The notes under the pieces were generated by a model. It had not been told where the DNA came from. It saw only the letters and a program-made list of their open reading frames with translations, and did no database searches. Below, piece after piece: positions 15,525 through 22,485 of a DNA stretch of 64,000 nt. Origin of the DNA: Ruegeria lacuscaerulensis (GTDB lineage: Bacteria; Pseudomonadota; Alphaproteobacteria; Rhodobacterales; Rhodobacteraceae); the NCBI RefSeq assembly GCF_013033355.1, contig NZ_WQDY01000007.1, positions 1 through 64,000 of the forward strand, in the 5' to 3' direction. Numbering within the stretch: position 1 is the stretch's first letter; each line of letters starts with the position of its first letter. The position numbers were made by a program, and so were the translations under genes.

Positions 15525-15925
15525 AGTTCTCTCCAAGTTTGGGATGTTGGACATCCCGGCTCATATTTGCCGAGGCCGAAACCCCAGCGTTCAGGTCCGT
15601 TGTTACGGGATTGGCCAAAATGCGCCCGAGGAATGCGACCCTCAGAATTCTTTGGTCTTACCCGTCTCAGGCAGGGAATTAAGACCTTTCGCAAGGTCAC
15701 CCACCGTCTTGGACGAAACGAAATAAAGCGCACGACGAATCGCACGCTTTACTCCGCAAGTCTCTTTAGGGCAGATAGGCGGGGTTTCCAAGAGGTAAAT
15801 CACATCAAATCGCTGCAATCCCTTCCCAGCGAGGCACCCTGTCCAAACTGTATTGTGCGGCATTGACATGTCATTCACGCTAAGGTCCTGTCTCGCGCAC
15901 CCAAACCCCGGATAACACGCTGCAA
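15525..15925. other. Intergenic region: rplJ leader and divergent promoter zone
   Basis: This 401-bp stretch has no convincing gene. It must contain the rplJLrpoBC promoter on the minus strand and the promoter of the phosphotransferase on the plus strand. I see a perfect TTGACA (15863-15868, plus) but no good -10 at the right distance. On the minus strand only weak candidates are visible, such as TTGGAA-17-TAAAGA. A stable leader hairpin is annotated separately. Confidence 0.55.
15654..15686 (-). promoter_or_regulatory. Probable L10-binding leader hairpin of rplJ
   Basis: In the presumed rplJ 5' leader, GGTCTTA and TAAGACC pair perfectly (15680-15686 with 15654-15660). They close an internal segment, CCCTGCCTGAGACGGG, that can form a short inner stem with an asymmetric purine-rich loop. 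This position and shape fit the L10 leader, where free L10(L12)4 represses translation of rplJL. The match to the family is from memory and is not scored. Confidence 0.55.
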
Positions 15926-16897
15926 ATGCCGAAACTCTCCCCGCAAGAACACCGATTTGCGACAGGTTGCGTCGAAGAATTCTCGGCACATGGCAGGAAC
16001 CTAAGCTTATCCGGGTTTGAATGCGTCTACCGATCGCATGATTTTGCTGACACCCGGTACCTATTGCGCCTGAGAACCGGTTCAGGGGAGTACGCCCTAA
16101 AGATTGATACAACCTCTCCGGAAACGGGTCGGTTGCAGAAGGAATATGACCTTCTGACGACCCTGTCGGCTTATTTCGAAGACACGCAGACTTTGCAAGT
16201 TGTTCGCCCTGTCTACATCTCACCCTCGCAGACGTTCTTCGTGACAGAGTATATCGACCGTCCAACCGCAGCGGATCTTATTCACAAAAGTCCTGATGCG
16301 GATCAGGTCGCCCAGATTTATCGACGCGCCGGAGAATGGCTGCACCATTTGCACGCGTACCGCCCGCTACAGCAATACGGATTTCGACCGAAATGGATGC
16401 TCGACAACATTCAGGCCGCAGCGGCGCATGTCCCACAAGAGATTCAACGCGAAAGCGCGGCAATGCTGGATGTGCTGACAAACGAAGCATGGAGCCTCAG
16501 GGGCACTCTGGAAACGCAGGTGTTTTCACATGGTGATTTCCATGCACAGAACCTGATCGTCGGCCGAGGGCATATGATCGGTTTGGATTTCACCGAGGTC
16601 AGGGTGAAACTGGCCCCCTATGACATCGTGGACTTCCTGAAGTCCGATGTGTTTCGCGACGCTCCCCCTCAGGAAGTGGATCGCAGTGGCATTTTGAAAA
16701 CAAACAAAGAGATGTTTTTCCGGCGTTACGCACACCCCATCCATATGGGCATTCTGGACACCTGCATCCGAGGACGGTTGATTTTGGACTGGTTGGCACT
16801 GTGGCACTTAAACCATCGCTGCAGCCCGTACGAGGAAGACAAACGGCACAGGCTGGGCAACCGACTGCGCATCGCATTTCAGGACCGTTTTGATTAA
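15926..16897 (+). CDS. APH-fold phosphotransferase (kinase-like), first copy
   Basis: The 323-residue product has the core of the aminoglycoside phosphotransferase/choline kinase superfamily: catalytic loop HGDFHAQNLI near residue 201 (Asp base, Asn metal ligand) and metal-binding GLDF near residue 217. An N-lobe lysine (ALKID) lies near residue 57. No signal peptide is visible. It resembles the third gene of this cassette (18199-19212): both share EYI..-T-A.L, AG.WL...H, F.PK.....Q and HGDFH..NLI. The substrate is unknown; sugar, lipid or small-molecule kinases are all possible. It interrupts the usual rplA-rplJ junction. Confidence 0.75.
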   Translation: MPKLSPQEHRFATGCVEEFSAHGRNLSLSGFECVYRSHDFADTRYLLRLRTGSGEYALKIDTTSPETGRLQKEYDLLTTLSAYFEDTQTLQVVRPVYISPSQTFFVTEYIDRPTAADLIHKSPDADQVAQIYRRAGEWLHHLHAYRPLQQYGFRPKWMLDNIQAAAAHVPQEIQRESAAMLDVLTNEAWSLRGTLETQVFSHGDFHAQNLIVGRGHMIGLDFTEVRVKLAPYDIVDFLKSDVFRDAPPQEVDRSGILKTNKEMFFRRYAHPIHMGILDTCIRGRLILDWLALWHLNHRCSPYEEDKRHRLGNRLRIAFQDRFD

Positions 16898-17061
16898 CGC
16901 AACTTTCGCGCTGCTAACAAAATTGTGTGATCGGAGCTGAAGAAATGGCTAGCAAAATCAGACTCAAGCAAATTAAATTGCGCACTGGATATAGGTTTTG
17001 CCGGTTTCCAACCTAAAGCCTCCGCCTGGTTAACAAGTTTCTGTAAGGTTAAGTCGAGCAC

Positions 17062-18087
17062 ATGGTACTTCGCAGTTTTTTCGCTCAGGACAGCTCCAGC
17101 CTGATTGTGACCTCCAGTTCTTCTGGCGGCATCGTAGGCAACTCGATTATCAACAACTCGGATACGCCGGACGGGACCATCTTTTCCTTTTCTGGCGGCG
17201 GCGGGACGACCGTCACGCTGGATGACACCAGCGGCAGCCCGGATATTTTCAACGACGACCAGGCGGGCGGACATATCATTACGGATGGCGGTGGGATTGT
17301 CGCCGACGGTACGCCGGTCGAGTCAGAATCCATTATCGTCCTGCGCGCCCTGGACGGTGATGGCAACCCGGTCGGACCCGAAATCGAGGTCTACGTTTTT
17401 TCGCAAAACGGCGTCACCTCGGACGTTTGGGGATTTGCAACGTCTGCACCACTGGACCCCGGAACATCCTATATCAAGGTTTCAGGATCCAACGCAGGCA
17501 GTTCGGCTTATGACGACTACATCCCCTGTTTTGGCCCAGGCACTCTGATCGCAACATCCGAAGGGGATGTCGATATCGCGCAACTCAGCCGTGGTCAGAA
17601 CATCTGGACCCGCGATGCCGGTTTTCAGCCAATCATGTGGATCGACACGACCACAGTCCCCGGGCGCGGCGCCTTTGCACCTGTTGTGATTGAACAGGGG
17701 GCCATCGGAAACACCAAAAAACTTATTCTGTCACAGCAACATCGGGTTCTGGTCGCTTCGCCCGCGATAAGCATGCTGTTCGGGTCTTCTGAGGTTTTCG
17801 TTGCGGCCAAGCATCTTTGCAGCCTGCCGGGTGTTGAAATCCGCGAGATGGACAGGATCACCTACACGCATTTCATGTTCGACCAGCATCACATCGTTCG
17901 GTCGAACGGAGCGTTGACAGAAAGCTATTTCTTTGGCGAAAGCGCGAAACATGCCTTGTCCTCGGCGCAGCGAGCCGAGATTTTGGCCCTGTTCCCCTCG
18001 CTTGACCACGCAAGGGACGCCTTCCGTCACACCGCAGCCGCGACGATCAACGCCCGTGAAGCAGCAGTTCTAAGCGCGTATATGTGA
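17062..18087 (+). CDS. Hint (hedgehog/intein) domain protein
   Basis: The 341-residue product has two parts. Residues 1-153 are rich in Gly, Ser, Asp and Thr, look beta-rich and match nothing I know. From residue 154 there is a Hint_2-type domain: CFGPGTLIATSEGDV with the nucleophile-position cysteine, then WTRDAGFQPIMWI, LILSQQHRVLV and AAKHL. Hint domains catalyse an N-to-S acyl shift and can self-cleave. Members of this class are common in Rhodobacteraceae and are often secreted by type I or unknown routes. No Sec signal peptide is visible. It lies between two related phosphotransferase genes on the same strand, with gaps of 164 and 111 bp. Confidence 0.8.
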   Translation: MVLRSFFAQDSSSLIVTSSSSGGIVGNSIINNSDTPDGTIFSFSGGGGTTVTLDDTSGSPDIFNDDQAGGHIITDGGGIVADGTPVESESIIVLRALDGDGNPVGPEIEVYVFSQNGVTSDVWGFATSAPLDPGTSYIKVSGSNAGSSAYDDYIPCFGPGTLIATSEGDVDIAQLSRGQNIWTRDAGFQPIMWIDTTTVPGRGAFAPVVIEQGAIGNTKKLILSQQHRVLVASPAISMLFGSSEVFVAAKHLCSLPGVEIREMDRITYTHFMFDQHHIVRSNGALTESYFFGESAKHALSSAQRAEILALFPSLDHARDAFRHTAAATINAREAAVLSAYM

Positions 18088-18198
18088 CCTGACAGGATGC
18101 GGGATGCCGCCAATCCCGGCATTTGCGCAACGCACCCGAACGCTGCATTGTCTGCAAATACGAATGCGGACGATTAATGCGAAGAGAAAAACCTTGGC

Positions 18199-19212
18199 AT
18201 GTGGTGGAACTTTCAGGACTCGACCCTCGACAAAACAGCCTTGAAACTTTGGCCAGGTTTCGCCGCCCAGGCGGGGTTGTCGCGCCATGGCTGGACGCTG
18301 ACCAAACTGTCCCGCCGAGACGATCCGGAAAACTCTCGGATTGTTCTTCGCGCAAAACACAGGTCGGGTTTGTCTTACGCCTACAAGTTCCAGCTTAAAC
18401 CCGAGTCGCAACAGGGGTTTGTCGCCCACCACATGCTCCAGGAACGAGCGTTTCATGCTCTGGGGGAAGACGCCACCCTGACCGCGCCCAAACCTATCCA
18501 GGTGTCACAGGACGCTCAAACAAGCCTCTTTGAATACATAAGGGGTCACACCTTCGCTGAACTCGTCCGCAAGGCTGAGGGTCGGCCTGTCCAACAATTG
18601 GACCTTTTAAAACAAGCCGGGGTCTGGCTGGATGCCTATCACCGCACACAGATCGAAGAGCGCCGCATCTTTCAGCCCAAATACACGGTCTGTTACTATC
18701 AGGAGCTGGAAAAACAGATCACCGCAGGCACTGCAGCCGTACCCGCACGGCAACTGTTTCTCGCCGGTATCCGACGGATCATTGAGCTGGCGCCACAGTT
18801 CGAGGGCCAGCAAACGATTTCGGCAATTCAGCACGGCGACTTTCACCTATCCAATCTGATACGAGACGACCAGCGGACACTCGGGCTTGACTTTTCCAGC
18901 GATCAAATGGCGCCGGTCGGACATGACATTTCAAAAGTCTTGCTGGATTTTACCACCCTGACCCGTTCTGCAAACGAGGTGGCGCCCGGCCGAGTCGTCC
19001 CCGACGATGTCACGTCAGCTTTTTTCGAAGGGTATAAACTGGTCGGTCCAAATGATCCCAGCCTGGCTTTTCTTCTTTATCCACGCGTCTTGTCGACTTT
19101 GGCCCGCGTGCCACAGAAAAAGGCGCTGCGCACTGCGGCTAAGCAAAGAACTCTGCGGCGGCTACGACCCTTTGCGAAAAGGGCTTTTCAGCCGGATCAC
19201 TTTACCAATTGA
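18199..19212 (+). CDS. APH-fold phosphotransferase (kinase-like), second copy
   Basis: The 337-residue product has the catalytic loop HGDFHLSNLI near residue 214 and the metal-binding GLDFS near residue 230. The N-lobe has AYKFQLKPESQQG, whose lysine could bind ATP. It is a diverged paralog of the gene at 15926-16897 with the same order of motifs. The C-terminal 30 residues are strongly basic (RTAAKQRTLRRLRPFAKRAF), a possible nucleic-acid or membrane contact that the first copy lacks. Start ATG at 18199 has only a weak ribosome binding site. The substrate is unknown. Confidence 0.75.
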   Translation: MWWNFQDSTLDKTALKLWPGFAAQAGLSRHGWTLTKLSRRDDPENSRIVLRAKHRSGLSYAYKFQLKPESQQGFVAHHMLQERAFHALGEDATLTAPKPIQVSQDAQTSLFEYIRGHTFAELVRKAEGRPVQQLDLLKQAGVWLDAYHRTQIEERRIFQPKYTVCYYQELEKQITAGTAAVPARQLFLAGIRRIIELAPQFEGQQTISAIQHGDFHLSNLIRDDQRTLGLDFSSDQMAPVGHDISKVLLDFTTLTRSANEVAPGRVVPDDVTSAFFEGYKLVGPNDPSLAFLLYPRVLSTLARVPQKKALRTAAKQRTLRRLRPFAKRAFQPDHFTN

Positions 19213-19214
19213 CA

Positions 19215-19248
19215 CAAAAAATCCCGGGCAGTTCTCACCACCCGGGAT
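19215..19248 (-). terminator. Rho-independent terminator of rplKA
   Basis: A perfect 8-bp stem, ATCCCGGG (19221-19228) with CCCGGGAT (19241-19248), is followed on the minus strand by six T. It lies 28 bp after the rplA stop and separates rplKA from rplJL. On the plus strand the tail is poor in T, so it is a weaker terminator for the phosphotransferase gene. Confidence 0.85.
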
Positions 19249-19275
19249 CAATTCTTTGTAGTCGTGCGTCAGGGC

Positions 19276-20425: not shown

Positions 20426-20735
20426 TTGGTTTTCCTTTCAACGTAGGTGAAACGCGTTCCACCCGGTTTATGTTGCGTGGTCCGATCCGGGATCGCGATC
20501 CCAGCAACCTCCCACGAGAGAATCTCGCCCGAAGACGATAGAGGCGGCATTTACAGGGGAACGATGGGGTTGGCAAGTAGATGTCACCTTATTCCCAATT
20601 GACCCTTTTTGTCTTGGTCCGACCTCAGTGTCAGTTAGAAAAGCCAAACAGAATAATTTACTTGAATACATAAGTTGCGCCAGAGAACAAGACGGGTATC
20701 TTGGAACTGCTTGATTGCAAAAGAGGTGATCGGGG
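20426..20735. other. Divergent intergenic region rplK / exported protein pair
   Basis: These 310 bp contain no gene I can support. The minus-strand rplK promoter candidate lies at 20548-20576. The plus-strand part is AT-richer (20625-20710) and precedes the exported protein gene, but no clear -35/-10 pair is visible there. Confidence 0.5.
20548..20576 (-). promoter_or_regulatory. Candidate promoter of rplKA
   Basis: The minus strand has -35 TTGCCA (20571-20576), a 17-bp spacer and -10 TAAATG (20548-20553). Predicted transcription starts about 115 bp before rplK. The ffs promoter in this window has the same -35 hexamer. Confidence 0.45.
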
Positions 20736-21596
20736 ATGGCATCATCTCGGCTGAACAAGGGGCTACTGATCTGCGTTTTCCTAGCGATGCTGCCGGGATG
20801 TGGCAGCAAGGCTCAGGATCAGGACGCCGCGTCCGAGACTACCGGCCAATCCAACGGGTCCAACAGTCCCGCGTCAACCGTCACGACGGGGATTGATCCT
20901 GCCAACTATGCCGGTCGGTTTCAGATAAAACTGACCAAGGAAGTTCCCCTGCGCGACATTCCCGTTCCTTTCACGGTTTACAGTGGCCTTGAAGAAGCCA
21001 GCCCCACAAGGTTGCAAATAAGGGCGTTCATGGACTTGCGCGGATTACAGGAAAAGGCGCCGCAGATTCTGACTGGCCCTCTGGAAGAAAGCTGCAAACG
21101 TCAGATCTATCTTGAGGTCCGCGATGTCACTGCCATAGGCGATACTGTAAAGGTCGAGGGTTCGGCCCGCGCTCAATTTACCAGGTGCAACCGGCGTGAA
21201 GAAGCTGGCATTCGTTATTTTGGCGCTACAGTCGATGCCGTTGCTGTCGCCAAGGCGGAAGTTAAAGGCCAGTGCCTGACATTCAGTATCGAAAATGTTG
21301 ACCTCAACCCGCGTGGCTTTATCGGCGCCGTCAGCAATCTTTTTGGTTTGACCAACCGCATCAACGAAGCCGTGCTAGAAAAGGGTGGAGAGTTTTTGGC
21401 CGCAAACCCGGTCTGCCCGCCACTGCCCGAAGAATTCGCAGTTCTCGACCCAATCTACGAATCCGGCGGCACACGCGAAATTGCTCCGGGCGGGATGGGA
21501 GCCGCAGTTGTCGGATCGGCTGATGTCAGCGCCGAGACAATCGTCAAAGTCCTTGCGGGCCTAAAAGCGCTTGGTGTTTTGGAGTTTGCTGAATGA
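20736..21596 (+). CDS. Putative lipoprotein, paralog of the next gene
   Basis: The 286-residue product has a type II signal peptide: MASSRLNKGLLICVFLAM followed by the lipobox LPGC, so Cys-22 would be lipidated. After a Ser/Thr/Asn-rich linker to about residue 50 comes a domain of about 230 residues with no family I recognise. Distinctive motifs are PTRLQIRAFMDLRGLQ near 88, paired cysteines near 117 and 145, and LDPIYESGGTREIAPGGMG near 232. The next gene repeats this plan. The start has GAGGTGA 7 nt upstream. The two genes overlap by 4 bp (ATGA), so they are likely made together. It probably sits at the outer or inner membrane facing the periplasm. Confidence 0.75.
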   Translation: MASSRLNKGLLICVFLAMLPGCGSKAQDQDAASETTGQSNGSNSPASTVTTGIDPANYAGRFQIKLTKEVPLRDIPVPFTVYSGLEEASPTRLQIRAFMDLRGLQEKAPQILTGPLEESCKRQIYLEVRDVTAIGDTVKVEGSARAQFTRCNRREEAGIRYFGATVDAVAVAKAEVKGQCLTFSIENVDLNPRGFIGAVSNLFGLTNRINEAVLEKGGEFLAANPVCPPLPEEFAVLDPIYESGGTREIAPGGMGAAVVGSADVSAETIVKVLAGLKALGVLEFAE

Positions 21597-22357
21597 GACA
21601 TTGGTTCATGATCTTGGTCTTGGCGGCAGCAGTTCCCGGCGTTCGCGCTCCTAGCGCTCAGCAGGTGAACTTTCTGATCGACGCTACCTTACCGGTGCGC
21701 GAAACAAAGCTCCCCTACACGCTGGACATGAAAATCACTGCCGCTGCCCCTACACGGATCGGGGTAAACGCCCTTCTCGATCTCCGAGAGATACAAAAAA
21801 CAGTGCCAGAGCAGTTGGCTGACAACGCGATCATCGACAATTGCGGCCTGCAGGCCCGGCTGGATGACTTAAGCCTCAAAGCCCAAGACGACGCGATTGA
21901 CTTGAATGGAGATGTAACCATCACAATCTTCGAATGCAGTCGAACCAGCGAGCGCGACTTTCAGCGGGGCGAACAAAAAAGAGCCATCCTGGCGAATATG
22001 TCCACCGCGGCGACCGTCGAGCTGCGCGACAATTGTGCTTATTTCAAACTCATTGATCTTACACTTACGGCCCCTGAAGAACAGCGCGAGCAACTTCTGA
22101 AGGACGACACTCTGGACTCTGTTAAGGAATTGATGCTGGCCGCTGTGGACCTTGTTTTGAACGAAACCCCATTGTGTCCGGAATTACCAGCAGAACTCGC
22201 TTCACTCGATCCGGTTTACGACAATGGCGGCCCGAAAGAAATCGGAGAAGGCGGGCTGGGTGTCTTTCTTGACGGATCGGTGGATTTCAGCCCGTCGACA
22301 ATCCTCGACATTCTGACAGCCCTTCAACAAAATGAACTGATCCCCGGACCGCCATAG
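21593..22357 (+). CDS. Putative periplasmic protein, paralog of the upstream lipoprotein
   Basis: The 254-residue product begins MRHWFMILVLAAAVPGVRAPSAQ, a Sec signal peptide with no lipobox. The mature part mirrors the upstream lipoprotein: PTRIGVNALLDLREIQ, cysteines near residues 84 and 115, TPLCPELP, and LDPVYDNGGPKEIGEGGLG near the C-terminus. Translation starts within the upstream stop (4-bp overlap). The pair is therefore a tandem duplication in which one copy is lipid-anchored and one is soluble, which suggests a periplasmic complex. No function is known to me. Confidence 0.75.
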   Translation: MRHWFMILVLAAAVPGVRAPSAQQVNFLIDATLPVRETKLPYTLDMKITAAAPTRIGVNALLDLREIQKTVPEQLADNAIIDNCGLQARLDDLSLKAQDDAIDLNGDVTITIFECSRTSERDFQRGEQKRAILANMSTAATVELRDNCAYFKLIDLTLTAPEEQREQLLKDDTLDSVKELMLAAVDLVLNETPLCPELPAELASLDPVYDNGGPKEIGEGGLGVFLDGSVDFSPSTILDILTALQQNELIPGPP

Positions 22358-22427
22358 CTACACAGTTCTTTCCCTGCCACCGAAGTAGCCTGCCCCTTGC
22401 CTCCGGCTGCTAGAACTGGTTTGAAAC

Positions 22428-22460
22428 AAAAAAACGCCGCGTTGCTCAAGGCATCGCGGC
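22428..22460 (-). terminator. Rho-independent terminator of secE-nusG
   Basis: GCCGCG (22436-22441) pairs with CGCGGC (22455-22460). On the minus strand the stem is followed by G and seven T. It lies 26 bp after nusG and shows that nusG is not transcribed into rplK. Confidence 0.8.
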
Positions 22461-22485
22461 ACTTCGAATCTCGCAGCAGGTTAAG

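Follow-up and report, generated by a model that had tools for sequence, protein, structure and literature searches.

For chromosomal hotspots without mobile elements, homologous recombination was proposed by Oliveira et al. 2017 (PMC5635113), and type B bacterial intein-like (BIL) domains are characterized (PMC4031507) by a Hint fold and an N-terminal Cys and by the lack of a C-terminal His-Asn. Features of both, together with kinases of the APH/choline-kinase-like type (PF01636), meet in a 64,000-nucleotide stretch of Ruegeria lacuscaerulensis DNA (contig NZ_WQDY01000007.1, positions 1 to 64,000; referred to here as the window), where three plus-strand open reading frames (ORFs) lie between the ribosomal protein genes rplJ and rplA. 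Their products are designated K1 (an APH-fold kinase), Hint (a Hint_2 protein) and K2 (a diverged APH-type kinase). A first-pass annotation had interpreted the three genes as one kinase-Hint-kinase system. Their co-location was confirmed, but they do not form a three-part system, and the real feature is the slot in which they reside: the rplJ-rplA interval of Ruegeria is very probably a cargo slot, a gene-turnover hotspot with recombination in its flanks, with the K1-Hint block circulating as slot alleles.

The slot is of a known hotspot kind. As in the recombination-driven hotspots of Oliveira et al. 2017 (PMC5635113), accessory genes occupy one position flanked by core genes, their content turns over (12 cargo classes, 18 changes), no mobile-element gene was recognised among those scanned, and a recombination-like signal is seen in one flank (p 0.0035 on the rplA side and not significant on the rplJ side, the flanks alone being compared). 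Unlike those hotspots, the Ruegeria slot spans the species of a genus, measures 1-4 kb, is located between two ribosomal-protein transcription units (rplKA and rplJL-rpoBC), was never short where intact (long in 50 of 50 linked genomes) and harbors a gene family, K1, that is confined to it among the 148 genomes searched. No description of the slot or the trio was found in the titles and abstract openings searched.

The interval between rplJ and rplA

The three ORFs were confirmed at 15926-16897 (K1, 323 aa), 17062-18087 (Hint, 341 aa) and 18199-19212 (K2, 337 aa), separated by gaps of 164 and 111 bp, and the families assigned to them were borne out by Pfam (APH 2.4e-16, Hint_2 3.2e-42 and APH 2e-8). 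They are flanked on the minus strand by rplJ (L10, 15006-15554), which served as the anchor gene for interval retrieval, and rplA (L1, 19276-19974). The genus sample consisted of 54 genomes, one per species and mostly drafts, including the window genome (labeled G000; the others are numbered from G001 upward). The interval was retrieved from all 53 other genomes, and rplA and rplJ were linked in 49 of these, which together with the window genome gave 50. Interval length across the 50 ranged from 790 to 3751 bp and none was short. The view that rplA and rplJ are normally adjacent holds for most other genera examined but not for Ruegeria: the spacer was short (<=516 bp) in 18 of 29 genomes from other genera of the same family (29 of 37 examined), long (>=1195 bp) in nine, and two had no rplJ within reach, while among other genomes of the same class (12 of 57 examined) the gap was <=410 bp in 11 of 12. 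In one genome of another genus (G088), the same interval carried a distant inverted Hint_2-like gene (32%), an FkbM-domain methyltransferase gene and a further ORF. In the four unlinked Ruegeria genomes (G015, G027, G038 and G049) rplA and rplJ lie apart, by about 1.3 Mb on one contig in G049; a similar transporter-like gene was recognised by eye near rplA in G015, G038 and G049, the last of which is not a sister of the other two in the gyrB tree.

The cargo of the 50 linked slots was diverse. K1 together with Hint was present in 16 (one Hint being broken) and K1 without Hint in 13 (some with other ORFs), while the remainder contained GATase_4 (4), SnoaL (4), DUF2254 (3), an inverted Hint (3, including one remnant) or one of seven singletons, e.g. 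NUDIX plus DUF1508, a glycosyltransferase, or a methyltransferase with a weak LicD-like match. The class names GATase_4, DUF2254 and SnoaL derive from one scanned member each, the other members having been joined by blastp; the Pfam scan covered 20 of the 22 listed cargo representatives (16 genus proteins and four from other genera). Two of the 16 K1-Hint slots also carried K2, and two a 280-aa ORF of unknown kind. The slot of G001 had no convincing ORF and that of G024 only a Hint remnant; in G030 a SnoaL-like gene was seen by eye on the minus strand. The Hint genes of G018 and G021 contain an in-frame stop and are apparent pseudogenes.

Control spacers were measured in 21 genomes (the window genome and 20 chosen of the other 53). 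Most were near-constant (rplL-rplJ 82-83, rpoB-rplL 238-243, rplA-rplK 4 and nusG-secE 191-250 bp), and rpoC-rpoB measured 49-109 bp in 20 genomes and 280 bp in one. Only rplJ-rplA (1169-3739 bp) and rplK-nusG (149-3734 bp) were hypervariable. Since the other measured spacers hardly vary, variability is confined to the two ends of rplKA. The second hypervariable spacer, rplK-nusG, spans 20426-22485 in the window; its two ORFs (20736-21596 and 21593-22357), which cluster with each other by similarity, were present in seven of the 21 genomes, two genomes (G006 and G017) had no 80-aa ORF there, and the remaining ones had different ORFs. No ORF similarity was found between the two slots.

Cargo turnover and kinship

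A gyrB tree of the 54 genomes was used as a stand-in for the species tree, and K1 slots with and without Hint were merged into one class, giving 12 cargo classes, seven of them singletons. These classes required 18 changes on the tree, where the least possible is 11 and 200 label shuffles gave a mean of 20.6 and a minimum of 19, so that cargo carries some, weak, kinship signal. K1 presence alone changed seven times, and an earlier labeling into eight groups, with G030 placed as "other", gave 28 changes. Two pairs of sister species (G037/G052 and G001/G025) had wholly different cargo between flanks that were 95-97% identical. Even in the sister of the window genome (G034, 94% nucleotide identity in gyrB), identity to the window proteins was only 58% for K1 and 77% for Hint, and the nearest K1 relative coincided with the nearest gyrB relative in nine of the 29 K1-bearing genomes.

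Slot edges and mode of exchange

In five pairs of genomes with unrelated cargo the flanks, as far as the edges of the slot, were 87-97% identical. On the left, homology stopped at +244 to +260 from rplJ in all five; on the right, four of them diverged 1-4 bases after the rplA stop codon. In the window these edges delimit a variable slot, differing in sequence between species, at 15801-19270. The left border follows directly on a presumed rplJ promoter region on the minus strand (15763-15800), recognised by eye from aligned left edges as a conserved box ending at 15800 with cargo beginning just past it; it contains a -35-like TTGGAA (15786-15791), a 17-nt spacer and a -10-like TAAAGA (15763-15768), whose role as the rplJ promoter is a presumption. 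Visual inspection of the aligned right edges showed terminator-like hairpins in many of them; the one in the window, a GC-rich hairpin of 13 pairs followed by a T run, lies between K2 and rplA (19220-19249, minus strand). A scan of the region yielded 10 terminator-like sites where 5.0 were expected and, by consensus, three promoter-like sites where 2.1 were expected, and called none of the boxes seen by eye before rplJ, K1 and Hint, which thus stand unconfirmed.

Given their gyrB similarity, genomes with the same cargo had rplA 3' ends more alike than expected (partial r -0.27, p 0.0035; six regions tested, uncorrected); towards the 5' end of rplA this signal fell to -0.16 (p 0.045). The link between rplA similarity and shared cargo is why homologous recombination in the flanks is favored as the mechanism. 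Donor DNA of congeneric origin would bring closely similar ribosomal-protein genes at both ends, and a double crossover in these flanks would swap everything that separates the rplJ promoter from the rplA stop codon. The present cargo of the window would then be the K1-Hint block, probably of single origin in the genus and circulating as slot alleles, plus the rarer kinase K2. In G043, the slot contains a displaced 83-bp rplA 3' end (94% to G051) beside a 642-aa ORF with no Pfam match.

Several observations weigh against a recombining cargo slot. The unrelated-cargo pair G028/G042 has 66-69 bp in common next to rplA, as do some related-cargo pairs. On the rplJ side there is little or no signal (leader p 0.056, rplJ p 0.26, rplL p 0.08); the partial Mantel tests give approximate results, and relatedness missed by gyrB could mimic the rplA result. 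Recombination alone does not explain the absence of short slots. The 18 observed changes were fewer than in every one of the 200 shuffles, meaning that cargo is not kinship-free, and the K1-Hint class by itself is clustered on the gyrB tree, which is built from a single gene with 16 of 51 inner branches open. With one genome per species, mostly drafts, within-species exchange was not watched, and the covariation of K1 and Hint described below also fits a functional pair.

The two kinases

K1 orthologs were identified in 29 of the 54 genus genomes, including the window's, with 51-63% identity to the window K1, and all 29 genes sit between rplJ and rplA. Outside the genus, weak matches were obtained in seven of the 94 other genomes searched and none in the rest. 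An exact-peptide-pattern search of named genomes returned R. lacuscaerulensis HKCCC1264, Ruegeria sp. THAF57 and one weak match in a metagenome-assembled genome, which is no measure of distribution. K1 was not found in plasmid, phage or viral collections at the limits used, and a search of viral contigs by one short pattern gave 53 candidates but no relative. A defence origin was considered and rejected, the PADLOC matches of K1 being weak (E 0.008-0.01) and Hint and K2 having none; the same applies to a phage origin, none of the three proteins having matched PHROGs. A TTGACA box upstream of K1 (15863-15868, plus strand), a putative promoter element, was recognised by eye in 28 of the 29 genomes.

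K1 was modeled with a predicted local distance difference test score (pLDDT) of 94.8. Like the APH/choline-kinase-like kinases, K1 (as modeled) has the fold, and K1 and window K2 have the ATP-lysine, the HxDxxxxN motif and the second Asp. Fold and profile matches of K1 included APH(9)-Ia, APH(2''), APH(3')-Ia as well as amicoumacin, corramycin, homoserine and hexosamine kinases. Unlike the characterized members of PF01636, K1 has no close relative of known substrate in view, the 50 listed structures sharing only 10-18% identity with it, and the NCBIfam equivalog model for APH(3') scored 17.9 bits against a curated cut-off of 205. Residues K59, H202, D204, N209 and D221 were kept in 29 of 29 K1 sequences, including those from slots without Hint, and the ratio of nonsynonymous to synonymous substitution rates (dN/dS) was 0.07-0.19 in 10 of 12 pairs, the other two being saturated. 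K1 is under purifying selection, and the model and conserved residues make it most likely an active ATP-dependent O-kinase of a small hydroxylated molecule.

The proposed relationship between the two kinases was upheld by 30% identity over K1 residues 35-238 and by the five catalytic residues (K1 numbering), all of which window K2 keeps; window K2 is presumably likewise an ATP-dependent O-kinase of a small molecule. Within the genus K2 was found only in G000 and G041 (58%), and relatives at 30-36% occur in three other genera. In the G041 protein HGYFH replaces HGDFH, with Tyr in place of the catalytic Asp, and this copy may be catalytically dead; the sole K2 pair was saturated in dN/dS.

The Hint protein

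The Hint_2 profile PF13403 matched the protein with 144.8 bits (cut-off 28.4), the Hint domain spanning residues 155-292. A search of 37 genus genomes gave full-length orthologs (59-77%) in 14, the window's among them, and reading of the slots added others; Hint_2 relatives in 136 plasmid records were all below 60% identity, none covering 80%. The first-pass annotation had noted an intact cysteine motif and suggested a test of self-cleavage at Cys154, but the cysteine, a nucleophile candidate, is Cys156 (17527-17529). This residue was kept in 41 of 42 Hint sequences and His227 in all 42, while Glu287-Ser288 near the end of the domain were kept in 42 and 41 of 42, respectively, and by position would occupy the His-Asn site of inteins. 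Fold matches to the domain included the BIL structure 2lwy (template modelling score 0.72 by target) and Hedgehog 1at0 (0.55). In its Hint fold, Cys nucleophile and conserved His the protein resembles the BIL/Hedgehog Hint domains and differs from them by a fused N-terminal region and a helical tail predicted after the domain. The N-terminal half, previously described as unmatched, has low-identity counterparts, beginning at residues 10-19, in some further Ruegeria Hint_2 proteins; structure prediction, suggested as a check, left its fold unpredictable, with pLDDT <50 over residues 1-38, 42-88, 115-123 and 144-152.

The sequence features agree with those of type B BIL domains (PMC4031507), and the C-terminal His-Asn of self-splicing inteins appears to be absent; both comparisons depend on the inferred placement of the His-Asn site. 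Because Cys156 and His227 are kept and Glu-Ser would fall at that site, Hint is probably a Cys156-driven cleavage domain without splicing, like type B BIL domains. With dN/dS of 0.08-0.13 in seven pairs, Hint is under purifying selection. A GTTGAC/ATTGAC-type box precedes the gene, by eye, in 13 of 16 genomes, the window genome, G004 and G034 being the exceptions.

Association of K1 with Hint

The interpretation of the trio as one system did not hold up, as K2 is present in only two of 54 genomes with differing gene order (K1-Hint-K2 in G000 and K2-K1-Hint in G041), and 13 of the 29 K1 slots have no Hint. What survives of the idea that co-location denotes a system is the adjacency of K1 and Hint, with Hint following K1 on the same strand in the other 16. 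Across 15 genomes the distances of the two proteins were correlated at 0.87 (partial 0.86 when controlling for gyrB), versus 0.39 for K1 and 0.29 for Hint with gyrB, a covariation that is expected from linkage or partnership alike. Since one branch (80/94) separates the 15 intact Hints next to K1 from the four other tested orthologs, the adjacency probably arose once, the two genes then being inherited together. Hint presence changed six times on the K1 tree, by loss or transfer, and for this reason Hint seems dispensable to K1. Hint without K1 was observed in three slots (inverted, one a remnant) and outside the slot in three of 37 genomes searched. A survey of neighborhoods, also suggested as a check, found no APH neighbor of a non-slot Hint nor the reverse in the checked loci (flanks of about 1.5-4 kb): 41 loci had Hint, 27 had APH and 11 had both, all 11 from the slot, several places having been fetched twice. 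We infer that K1 and Hint are separately transcribed, non-obligate partners.

Alternative explanations

The pair could instead work together, with K1 phosphorylating a small molecule or the Hint product, the Hint thioester coupling or releasing it, and K2 as an accessory. The retained order and strand in 16 of 29 K1 slots, the co-inheritance (r 0.87), the co-occurrence in slots (Fisher p 0.0039, uncorrected for kinship) and purifying selection on both genes speak for such a pair, which we nevertheless regard as unlikely: K1 keeps its catalytic residues in the 13 Hint-less slots, Hint presence changes repeatedly on the K1 tree, Hint is also found without K1, no Hint-APH neighborhood occurred outside the slot in the checked loci, and the two genes have separate promoter-like boxes by eye, though none precedes Hint in the window genome. 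About equally improbable is a role of the kinases in antibiotic resistance, with the slot serving as a locus for resistance or competition. Antibiotic kinases (APH(9)-Ia, APH(3')-Ia and the amicoumacin and corramycin kinases) do make up most of the best hits by fold and profile, but identity to the listed structures is low, homoserine, N-acetylglucosamine, choline and methylthioribose kinases are among them, the NCBIfam APH(3') match is far under its cut-off, and other kinds of gene predominate among the scanned cargo.

A still more doubtful explanation is a site-specific or transposing element aimed at the rplA 3' end that fills the slot and carries the cargo as passengers. Such an element would account for the abrupt end of the slot at the rplA stop codon, seen in most compared pairs, and for the one displaced rplA 3' end in G043. 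Against it, none of the 20 cargo proteins scanned had an integrase- or transposase-like Pfam match, common words at the two edges of a slot were no longer than those of edges taken from different genomes (means of 6.74 and 6.54), the boundaries match functional limits (promoter and stop codon), and K1 was not found in plasmid, phage or viral collections at the limits used. Turning to how recombining alleles might travel, the gene transfer agent (GTA) marker PF13547 was detected in 48 of the 54 genomes, which points only to a vehicle that may be available and gives no evidence of particle-borne transfer at the slot. It is conceivable, albeit with little likelihood, that rplKA in Ruegeria has an exchange slot at either end (rplJ-rplA and rplK-nusG) served by GTAs, the similar ribosomal flanks allowing cargo to be swapped across species, with the rplJ-rplA load itself under selection because no linked genome has a short slot. 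Particle-sized swaps are compatible with the interval of <=3.75 kb in linked genus genomes, whereas two rplJ-rplA slots without a convincing intact gene and two of 21 rplK-nusG spacers without an 80-aa ORF count against this proposal. If true, gene families such as K1 would exist solely as alleles of one genus-wide chromosomal address.

Implications

With the recombining cargo slot as the preferred reading, the apparent three-gene system becomes a gene-exchange address in a highly conserved ribosomal neighborhood, where promoter and stop codon stay intact while the cargo in between differs from species to species. The case is a caution that co-location in a single genome is a poor guide to function. 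The slot offers a clean site for measuring recombination between species, including that by gene transfer agents, and K1 and Hint are of interest as genes under selection.

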